Below are positions 24,690 to 27,077 of a stretch of 34,393 nucleotides of DNA, in pieces. The translations under genes and the position numbers were made by a program. The notes below the pieces were generated by a model that made no database searches, was not told the DNA's origin, and was given only the letters and a program-made list of their open reading frames with translations. Origin of the DNA: a virus. Numbering within the stretch: position 1 is the first letter of the stretch; every line of letters starts with the position of its first letter. The DNA lies in IMG/VR virus record IMGVR_UViG_3300037847_001037, positions 1-34,393 of that record. One strand, given 5' to 3'.

Positions 24690-24816
24690 CGATCCAAAAG
24701 ACTTTCCCCAGGACTTTTGGAATTACCTAGTAAATCCAATACTAGGATATTATGCAGAGCAACCCTCTTTATCTACGAGAGGTGTATTGAATGAAAGGGG
24801 AGCAGAAGAAGAGTAG
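24667..24816 (+). CDS. Small hypothetical protein (49 aa)
   Basis: ATG 24667, TAG 24814-24816. Pro/Asp-rich start (ARPKKISDPKDFPQDFWNYL) then LNERGAEEE. It overlaps the terS end by 23 bp and the possible start of the methyltransferase ORF (24791). It may be a remnant displaced by the methyltransferase insertion, or a packaging accessory. Unrecognised. Confidence 0.45.
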   Translation: MARPKKISDPKDFPQDFWNYLVNPILGYYAEQPSLSTRGVLNERGAEEE

Positions 24817-24817
24817 T

Positions 24818-25891
24818 ATGAAGCACATAAAACTATTAGATTTATTTAGTGGTATAGGAGGGTTTCATTTAGGATTAGAAAGAGCTGGATTCAAAGTAAG
24901 CTCTTTCAATTCAGAGATAGATGAATATGCAATAGAAGTATATAAACATAATTTTAAACAGAGTAAGTATGTCGGATCAGTTACAGATGTTCGAGGATCA
25001 GAATTACCAAGAATCGATGCCATCACCTTCGGAAGCCCTTGCCAAGATTTCTCACTTGCTGGAAACCGTAAAGGGATGGCAGGAGAACGAAGCAGCCTTA
25101 TCCTTGAAGCAATTAGGCTTATACAAGAATGCAGACCTCGTTTTTTTATATGGGAAAACGTTAAAGGAACTTTCTCCTCAAACGCTGGCGAAGACTTTGC
25201 GGCAATCCTGCAAGCGTTTACCAACATTGGGGGCTATCGACTTGAATGGCAATTGCTTAATACGAAGTGGTTTCTACCCCAAAATAGAGAGAGAGTCTAC
25301 CTTGTCGGATATGCTCCAACAAGAAGTCCAGGAGAAATATTTCCTATCACAGAAAGCATTATCAAGCCTAAAAGAGTGGCAAGAGAAAGGGAAGAAAGTG
25401 CCTGTATCACAACAAGTTATCACAAAGGAGTGAATTGGGACAACCAACTGATTGCAGCTTCAAGAGGAAGGAATCCTAATGACATAAATGACAGGAAGGC
25501 TGGATCTCCAATGCAGCAGAGATTGGAAATAAATACAGAAGGAATTAGTAACACGCTTACCAGCGTGCATAAAGATAATTATGTTTTGGGATACAGTAGA
25601 GACGCAAAAGGTAAAGTTGTTGGTAGGCATAAAAAATATTTAGCAAACACAATTCATTCTTCGTCAGGCACAGGAAACAACACAGACCAATTTGTAAAAT
25701 CTATAAGAAGATTAACTCCAATTGAATGTGAGAGGTTACAAGGCTTCCCCGACAATTGGACACTAGCAAATGGAATCTCAGATACACAAAGATATAAGAT
25801 GTGTGGAAATGCAGTAACCGTAGACGTAGTAGAAGCTGTAGGAAAAAGAATATTAGAAACTGTTTATGGCTGTACCTCAACTTCACGATAA
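24818..25891 (+). CDS. dcm: C5-cytosine DNA methyltransferase (357 aa)
   Basis: All core motifs are present: I (DLFSGIGGF, 8-16), IV with catalytic Cys75 (GSPCQDFS), VI (WENV, 112-115), VIII (QNRERVYLVG, 155-164), the target-recognition region, IX (RRLTPIECERLQGFP) and X (YKMCGNAV). It would methylate cytosine, protecting phage DNA from restriction or marking it. I chose ATG 24818 because the fold begins there; 24791 adds nine residues. It sits between terS and terL and encloses a second ORF (24969-25433). Confidence 0.9.
   Translation: MKHIKLLDLFSGIGGFHLGLERAGFKVSSFNSEIDEYAIEVYKHNFKQSKYVGSVTDVRGSELPRIDAITFGSPCQDFSLAGNRKGMAGERSSLILEAIRLIQECRPRFFIWENVKGTFSSNAGEDFAAILQAFTNIGGYRLEWQLLNTKWFLPQNRERVYLVGYAPTRSPGEIFPITESIIKPKRVAREREESACITTSYHKGVNWDNQLIAASRGRNPNDINDRKAGSPMQQRLEINTEGISNTLTSVHKDNYVLGYSRDAKGKVVGRHKKYLANTIHSSSGTGNNTDQFVKSIRRLTPIECERLQGFPDNWTLANGISDTQRYKMCGNAVTVDVVEAVGKRILETVYGCTSTSR
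24969..25433 (+). CDS. Nested out-of-frame gene within the methyltransferase (154 aa)
   Basis: Wholly inside the methyltransferase, in another frame, with no stop for 154 codons. The product is not low-complexity. It has a Pro/Ser-rich lead (MPSPSEALAK), a middle with DLNGNCLIRSGFYPK, and a C-terminal part STLSDMLQQEVQEKYFLS then SLKEWQEKGKKVP. That last pattern, 'Y-x-L-S-x-K-A ... (K/R)GKxLP', is one I recall from phage proteins encoded beside or overlapping phage Dcm genes. Function unknown. Family recognition is from memory and needs a search. Confidence 0.6.
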   Translation: MSDQLQMFEDQNYQESMPSPSEALAKISHLLETVKGWQENEAALSLKQLGLYKNADLVFLYGKTLKELSPQTLAKTLRQSCKRLPTLGAIDLNGNCLIRSGFYPKIERESTLSDMLQQEVQEKYFLSQKALSSLKEWQEKGKKVPVSQQVITKE

Positions 25892-27077
25892 ATACCAAGC
25901 TTTAGGAAATGACACCCGTTACTTTGTGGTGACGGGTGGTAGGGGATCCGGTAAGTCCTTTGCAGTAAATACCTTCCTGGCTTTCCTTACAATGGAGAAG
26001 GGTCATAAGATACTCTTTACTAGGTTTACTATGGTCTCTGCTGCTACCTCTATTATACCTGAGTTTCTAGAAAAGATAGAATTGTTTGGTATTGCAAAAC
26101 ATTTTAGAATTACCAAAGATGAAATTATAAATACAGCTACAGGAAGCTCGATAATATTTAAGGGTATAAAGACAAGCAGCGGTAACCAAACCGCTGCGCT
26201 GAAGTCCCTCCAGGGTATTACAACCTTTGTCTTGGATGAGGCAGAAGAACTAATCAACGAAGATAGCTTCGATAAGATAGATCAGTCTGTAAGGGAGAAA
26301 GGTAAACAGAATAGGTGTATATTGATACTAAACCCCACTACAAAAGAACATTGGATATATCAACGCTTCTTTGCTGCCAAGCGAGTAGAAGCAGCTTCAA
26401 ATACTTGGAAGGATAATGTTACATACATTCACACTACTTACTTAGATAACAAAGAGAATCTGTCAAAATCCTTTGTAGAGCAGGTAGAGAATATGAAAAG
26501 AAAGAACCCTAGAAAGTATCTGCATCAGATAATGGGAGGCTGGCTAGATAAGGCTGAAGGTGTAGTAATCACCGATTGGAAAACAGGTGAGTTTAAAGGA
26601 TATCACCAAATTGTATATGGCCAAGATTATGGCTTCTCTACAGACCCTACAACCCTTATTAGATGCTCTGTAGACACCGAACATAGGATTATGTGGGTTC
26701 AGGAATGTTTCGTCACTCCTGGGCTTTCTACTAAAGAAATAGCCGAAAGGAATATCAGACACGCTGGTGAGGATATTATAATATCCGATAACAGCGAACC
26801 TAGGATGATACAGGAAATGAAGGAAGTTTACGGCTGTAATGTAAAAGGAACTAGAAAAGGTAAAGGATCAATACTTACTGGTATTGCACTAATGCAGGAC
26901 TACCACATTGTAGTGGATGCTAGAAGTGAGAATATAATTAAGGAGCTGAACAACTATGTATGGCACGCTCGCAATGAGCGTCCAATCGATAAATGGAATC
27001 ATTGCATTGACGCAATGAGATACGCTCTTCAATTTGCAGAAATAAATTCGAAGCGAGGAACTTATGTGATCCGGTAA
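25866..27077 (+). CDS. terL: Terminase large subunit (403 aa)
   Basis: N-terminal ATPase: Walker A GGRGSGKS (24-31) and Walker B FVLDEAEE (121-128). C-terminal RNase H-like nuclease with metal-binding Asp254 (QDYGFSTD), Asp308 (SDNSEPR) and Asp382 (HCIDAMRYAL). TerL pumps DNA into proheads through the portal and cuts concatemers. The start overlaps the methyltransferase end by 26 bp. The iterons at 27079 begin directly after the stop, which could make them the packaging site. Confidence 0.93.
   Translation: MAVPQLHDKYQALGNDTRYFVVTGGRGSGKSFAVNTFLAFLTMEKGHKILFTRFTMVSAATSIIPEFLEKIELFGIAKHFRITKDEIINTATGSSIIFKGIKTSSGNQTAALKSLQGITTFVLDEAEELINEDSFDKIDQSVREKGKQNRCILILNPTTKEHWIYQRFFAAKRVEAASNTWKDNVTYIHTTYLDNKENLSKSFVEQVENMKRKNPRKYLHQIMGGWLDKAEGVVITDWKTGEFKGYHQIVYGQDYGFSTDPTTLIRCSVDTEHRIMWVQECFVTPGLSTKEIAERNIRHAGEDIIISDNSEPRMIQEMKEVYGCNVKGTRKGKGSILTGIALMQDYHIVVDARSENIIKELNNYVWHARNERPIDKWNHCIDAMRYALQFAEINSKRGTYVIR

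Follow-up and report, generated by a model that had tools for sequence, protein, structure and literature searches.

A conserved gene nested within the cytosine methyltransferase gene of a Bacteroidota-type phage: a candidate small subunit and sliding-clamp tether

The dcm locus and its nested gene

The window, the whole stretch of 34,393 nucleotides of viral DNA analysed here (IMG/VR record IMGVR_UViG_3300037847_001037), carries on its plus strand a dcm gene (24791–25891) for a C5-cytosine DNA methyltransferase (Dcm) of 366 aa, the proposed alpha chain of a pair. The protein matches PF00145 across 342 residues (E = 4.7e-73); motifs I, IV, VI, VIII, IX and X can all be placed, and the enzyme is complete. 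As the first-pass annotation had pointed out, a 154-codon ORF in another frame, which is the +1 frame, lies inside this gene over its entire length, from ATG to stop (24969–25433, +). Beneath it are dcm motifs IV (25031–25054), VI (25151–25162) and VIII (25280–25297); motif IX (RRLTPIECERLQGFP, 25706–25750) sits in the large chain and not in the small one.

The nested product is a proposed small subunit and clamp tether. Its residues 4–8, QLQMF, resemble a sliding-clamp-binding motif and are encoded at 24978–24992 (+), where synonymous constraint and the occurrence of the motif in distant clades single them out. The middle of the protein (residues 9–110; 24993–25298, +), which overlaps motifs IV, VI and VIII, has low pLDDT. 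The C-terminal segment TLSDMLQQEVQEKYFLSQKALSSLKEWQEKGKKVP (residues 111–145; 25299–25403, +) is distinguished by synonymous constraint, by pLDDT and by HMM and hhalign comparisons. Upstream of the nested ATG, at −16 to −11, stands a TTTAAA (24953–24958, +), a possible initiation context held in the Bacteroidota-type clade. An antisense ORF of 120 codons (24865–25227, −) also lies within dcm and probably arises as a side effect of the double constraint on this sequence. The 3′ end of dcm shares 26 bases (25866–25891) with the next gene (25866–27077), whose product of 403 aa reads like a terminase large subunit.

Selection on the nested frame

Relatives were retrieved with the Dcm protein as query; this was the main control, since such a search does not favour genes with the nested frame. 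Among the 80 loci of the window's clade obtained in this way, the ATG is found at the homologous position in all 80, and at least 136 codons are open in 79; in the one that differs, L115, a single stop interrupts the nested frame. This stop and a break that affects both frames after motif VIII in a Streptococcus-type locus (L228, 2829–3413) are possibly decay or sequencing errors. Over motifs IV–VIII the +1 frame is free of stops in 78/79 Bacteroidota-type, 73/73 Streptococcus-type and 80/80 proteobacterial-type dcm genes; pooled, 231 of 232 phage-type genes have the nested ORF over these motifs, against 0 of 27 chromosomal genes. Related sequences do not count as independent events, but the clades are mutually distant. 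An open +2 frame never occurs in the same three clades. An open +1 frame was seen in 7 of 34 dcm genes of bacterial genomes, all 7 with the nested signature, and the remaining 27 are without it. Of 100,000 synonymous recodings of the window's Dcm, none preserved an open stretch of at least 136 codons in the nested frame; the longest ATG-started ORF there averages 27 codons (95th percentile, 46).

The four-fold-site difference of dcm is 0.20 within the overlap against 0.60 outside it on either side. The first-pass annotation, which had suggested this comparison, counted normal synonymous variation across the overlap, together with a lack of homologues outside overlapping Dcm frames, against a functional pair; since variation there is strongly suppressed, that combination does not occur. 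As in an overprinted pair, the frame is open far beyond chance and the suppression is confined to the overlap; in three clades it tracks the nested ORF, being strongest at the C-terminal end and strong at the N-terminal motif. Synonymous change is lowest (0.05) at dcm codons 173–182, although Dcm residues vary there. At codons 173–192 third positions change least (0.18–0.24) and first positions most (0.36–0.40), the reverse of the normal order, so it is the nested frame that sets the pace of change. At codons 93–102, under the nested middle, the constraint is relaxed. The Streptococcus clade has synonymous differences of 0.34–0.52 in the middle, 0.07–0.13 at the C-terminal end and about 0.29–0.36 at the N-terminal end. 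Synonymous suppression by itself could arise without a second protein, from constraint on the nucleic acid through DNA or RNA structure, regulatory sites or codon use, but such a reading leaves aside the variation of codons 173–192 with the period of the nested frame, as well as a frame kept without stops, ATG included, in hundreds of diverged genes; it is very improbable. The nested ORF is a real gene with strong protein-level selection at both ends.

The nested frame is presumably translated. Across 125 loci of the window's clade, the positions of TTTAAA are held at 1.00, 1.00 and 0.89 for T and 0.94, 0.94 and 0.91 for A, and a Shine–Dalgarno sequence precedes the nested ATG in 0/128 cases against 16 expected. 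TTTAAA without Shine–Dalgarno accords with the habits of Bacteroidota. The proteobacterial clade has an AAGGAG-like site before the nested ATG in 55/70 cases against 32.7 expected. A Shine–Dalgarno sequence is also present in the Streptococcus clade, at 73 cases against 68.6 in shuffles; it does not exceed the shuffled level and was not counted.

Distribution and annotation of the nested family

Residues 1–130 of the nested product match phrog_16143 (E = 1.9e-12), a phage family whose sole label is 'DNA methyltransferase' and to which the product can be assigned; Pfam, NCBIfam and PDB gave no match. A further family, phrog_1008, matches nested frames weakly and was not found in 7 genomes. The nested frame occurs in viral contigs and in phages of Streptococcus, Methanobacterium, Caulobacter, Vibrio, Pseudomonas, Akkermansia and Mycobacterium, as well as in P1 and in bacterial genomes, where the copies are probably prophages. 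All true homologues examined, bar truncated or frame-broken copies, lie within dcm, in its +1 frame, and no stand-alone homologue was confirmed in viral contigs, phages, plasmids, one genome-contig scan or 398 bacterial genomes. One candidate for a stand-alone copy, gp104 of Mycobacterium phage Thibault (81 aa, 'hypothetical'), was rejected: an HNH endonuclease gene splits dcm in this phage (L343, 1356–3157), and gp104, in the +1 frame of the interrupted gene, corresponds to the nested C-terminus.

The frame is annotated only occasionally, for example as orf14 of Streptococcus phage MM1, a 'C5 methyltransferase beta subunit', which matches phrog_16143 with E = 5.3e-82. In phage P1 dmt (L340) an unannotated nested +1 ORF (2246–2737) has the C-terminal motif RYFLSSKACAGILRRGEKRRKSLP and is without the clamp-like motif; hundreds of P1-like plasmids have the same ORF. 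Annotation errors were encountered at related loci: in Streptococcus phage MismyG (L164, 2075–3414) Dcm is called an IS1595 transposase, and in Javan355 (L344, 2442–2993) a minus-strand 'hypothetical protein' is placed over the 5′ half of dcm. In native phage SpSL1 the m5C enzyme is active on DNA (PMC6755750). The SpSL1 dcm gene carries the nested ORF, so both frames were there when this activity was measured.

The N-terminus and its sliding-clamp-like motif

The bacterial clamp-binding consensus is Q-L-x-L-F (PMC4549789), and the nested N-termini listed here fit it. The protein of the window begins MSDQLQMFED, in which QLQMF is a QLxLF-type peptide like those of clamp-binding proteins. N-terminal peptides with a candidate clamp motif include MSDQLQMFEDQN and MTSDQLDLFPSA; relatives begin with MTSQQYQMTLFEE, MTLQESQMSLFEE (SpSL1), MEQLTFLSEE or MQLSIFSS, others contain EQLSLFAED or EQLTLFAED, and the nested protein of mycobacteriophage Phoebus begins MTSDQLDLFPS, with an exact QLDLF. 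Further forms of the motif in relatives are QLSLF, QLTLF and QMSLF (SpSL1). Synonymous shuffling of each gene's own codons predicts the pattern Q[LM]x[LMIF][FLW] in 0.52 of 26 divergent clusters, and it was seen in 10; for Q[LM]x[LIM]F the expectation is 3.5 among 378 sequences and the observed count 190. At dcm codons 63, 64, 66 and 67, which lie over QLQMF, the synonymous difference within the window's clade is 0.00 across thousands of same-residue pairs. Depending on the clade, the motif is offset from Dcm motif IV by near −18, −16 or −7 residues; it thus overlies different Dcm codons and is not the shadow of one conserved Dcm stretch.

The motif is absent from P1-type members, from a T4-like Morganella phage and from some archaeal-type members, and is therefore not universal in the family. 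T4-like phages encode their own clamp. The N-terminus is predicted with a pLDDT of about 50 in the model of the window protein and 41 in that of the proteobacterial member L325, low values that fit disorder without proving it. By its sequence, the N-terminal peptide would bind the bacterial sliding clamp, DnaN. In Pseudomonas phage D14E (L349) a gene annotated as DNA polymerase III beta subunit central domain (1067–1741) stands two genes before Dcm, and the ORF nested in that Dcm begins MQLTLLEP; the beta-subunit gene is possibly a phage-borne clamp for the nested protein.

The C-terminus as counterpart of a cis methyltransferase segment

The nested protein of the window reads TLSDMLQQEVQEKYFLSQKAL at its C-terminus. 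The first-pass annotation had described the YFLSxKA...KGKKVP end as a pattern of phage proteins tied to Dcm, and this proved sound: LSDILE...KYFLS is the best-conserved portion of the nested family. An HMM of the C-terminus matches, in frame, a segment of chromosomal C5-methyltransferases that lies mostly 21–35 residues past motif VIII (DILEEQEVSVKYYLSNQYLNTLIAH is an example). Such matches at E < 1 were obtained for 14 of 67 control Dcm proteins, with a best value of 1.5e-5, and for none of the reversed or of the shuffled controls. Among 500 nested-bearing Dcms no in-frame match was obtained, and the window's Dcm is without an in-frame DILE...KYYLS segment after motif VIII. Profile–profile comparison by hhalign of the C-terminus with the cis segment gave a probability of 95.8% and a pairwise E of 7e-9. 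In an alignment of a chromosomal enzyme that has it, the cis segment falls on FVKDLLLPDSE of M.HhaI (residues ~191–201), where the small, target-recognising domain begins. A Fisher test for the cis segment was set aside; it set a regular-expression count against 0, yet the same expression has 11/398 look-alikes in nested-bearing Dcms.

From these sequence comparisons, nested-bearing Dcms would seem to have the segment in trans where many chromosomal C5-methyltransferases have it in cis, a likeness due either to descent or to convergence. In a tree of the catalytic part, nested-bearing Dcms fall into two separate clades, with weak to modest support; one of them, from Streptococcus and Methanobacterium, has the chromosomal clade with the cis segment as its sister group. 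Given two clades in this weakly supported tree, a single origin by overprinting is not a simple account. Some nested residues are shadows that follow from Dcm residues, such as GKT/GKM under Dcm WENV and LSD under Dcm LVG[YH]. The two end motifs are not, because Dcm residues vary there or the motif shifts along Dcm. Weak A2 matches in chromosomal dcm genes were rejected as shadows, as they have many stops and end before the C-terminus.

AlphaFold models agree with the pattern of selection. In the window protein, residues 111–140 have a pLDDT of 71–86, the rest being mostly below 60 and below 50 at residues 41–66; in L325, residues 111–140 reach 85–94 and the rest is again mostly below 60. According to selection and structure prediction alike, the nested protein is composed of two selected ends and a loose, low-confidence middle. 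A fold search with the C-terminus gave no useful match.

Comparison with known systems

The closest known case is the pair orf13/orf14 of Streptococcus phage MM1 ('C5 methyltransferase alpha/beta subunit'), which has the same nesting and a homologous nested protein; the protein of the window is a member from a Bacteroidota-type phage, about 30% identical to the MM1/phrog_16143 version. As far as found, the MM1 pair is known by annotation only, which does not cover the clamp motif, the link to the cis segment or the breadth of the family. No account of a nested pair beyond this annotation was met in a search of mainly open-access literature; as far as searched, those three aspects are new.

The chains of the methyltransferase M.EcoHK31I come from overlapping frames. 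This enzyme is a two-polypeptide C5-methyltransferase in which a piece that is normally in cis is found on the smaller chain, and M.AquI (alpha/beta) likewise consists of two polypeptides that form one C5-methyltransferase (PMC3404938). In M.EcoHK31I, compared here by description, motif IX is on the small chain, whereas in the present pair the large chain keeps motif IX and it is the post-motif-VIII segment that has moved. That segment is on the small chain and missing from the large one, as in a two-polypeptide enzyme; the small chain of M.AquI carries motifs IX–X, whereas here the large chain is complete for motifs I–X. Bacterial beta-clamp binders (transposases, MutS, Pol IV, Hda) bear a short Q-L-x-L-F peptide on an unstructured tail (PMC4549789). 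Here the candidate peptide is on a separate nested polypeptide. DNMT1, a methyltransferase tied to the clamp PCNA, is an analogue.

Proposed role of the nested protein

The role proposed in the first-pass annotation, a functional partner of the methyltransferase, is supported by the conserved end and by the suppressed synonymous variation of dcm; of the specificity, inhibitor and partner functions named there, that of a subunit with an added hold on the sliding clamp is favoured. The phage C5-methyltransferase would then be two polypeptides made from one stretch of DNA, the outer frame giving the catalytic chain with motifs I–X and the nested +1 frame, from its own ATG, the small chain. The C-terminal ~35–40 residues of the latter (LSDILE...KYFLSxKA) would dock on the catalytic chain and replace the cis segment between motif VIII and the target-recognition domain. 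A flexible tether of ~100 residues, whose sequence must also spell motifs IV–VIII, would join this end to the N-terminal QLxLF-type peptide, which may hook the sliding clamp (DnaN). Such a pair could travel with the replication clamp, so that new phage DNA would be methylated immediately and shielded from host restriction; translation, docking, clamp binding and the protective purpose are what we infer. Taken as a whole, a small subunit that restores the post-motif-VIII segment in trans and tethers Dcm to the clamp for replication-coupled methylation is a reading we hold to be correct by a narrow balance. Against it, the outer chain already has all standard catalytic motifs, so the small chain is perhaps dispensable for catalysis; in addition, the clamp motif is short and the segment match is based on ~30 residues.

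The strong clamp-like motif would equally suit a phage protein that acts on replication, for instance by blocking or redirecting DnaN, with the dcm overlap only historical, and small phage inhibitors of DnaN exist. This is unlikely: none of the true homologues examined stands alone, the best-conserved part is a C-terminus that resembles a methyltransferase segment, and P1-type members retain that C-terminus without the motif. A C-terminus mimicking the in-cis segment could instead belong to a regulator or inhibitor that tunes the phage C5-methyltransferase or blocks that of the host, and the protein does always come from the same DNA as its target; but nested-bearing Dcms are without the segment, which fits replacement better than competition, and the clamp-like motif is left unexplained, so this too has a low probability. 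To a similarly small degree, the protein may be real and have a function unrelated to methylation or the clamp, kept by overprinting. The absence of Pfam, NCBIfam, PDB and fold matches speaks for that option, and the specific counterparts of both end motifs, beyond chance, speak against it.

If the reading as a small subunit and clamp tether is extended to the family, widespread phage C5-methyltransferases would be split by reading frame, with the cis segment in trans, a tether and a clamp peptide that couples methylation to replication as in DNMT1–PCNA. This arrangement would be common to phages of Streptococcus, Bacteroidota, Proteobacteria, Mycobacterium and Akkermansia hosts, with P1 as a clamp-free form. 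We advance this general form tentatively, as one that stands somewhat nearer to failing than to holding.

Significance

A fully nested gene conserved over many phyla is rare, and this one can be tested by mutations that are silent in the outer frame. Phage cytosine methyltransferases have been studied and cloned as single chains, and the second chain, if made, is mostly unannotated. Were this chain made, methylation and host-range results obtained with cloned genes, including P1 dmt and the enzymes of pneumococcal and S. thermophilus phages, would need re-examination. An enzyme segment shifted between reading frames would represent an unusual path of protein evolution, and a clamp-bound methyltransferase would be a phage reply to restriction at the moment of replication.
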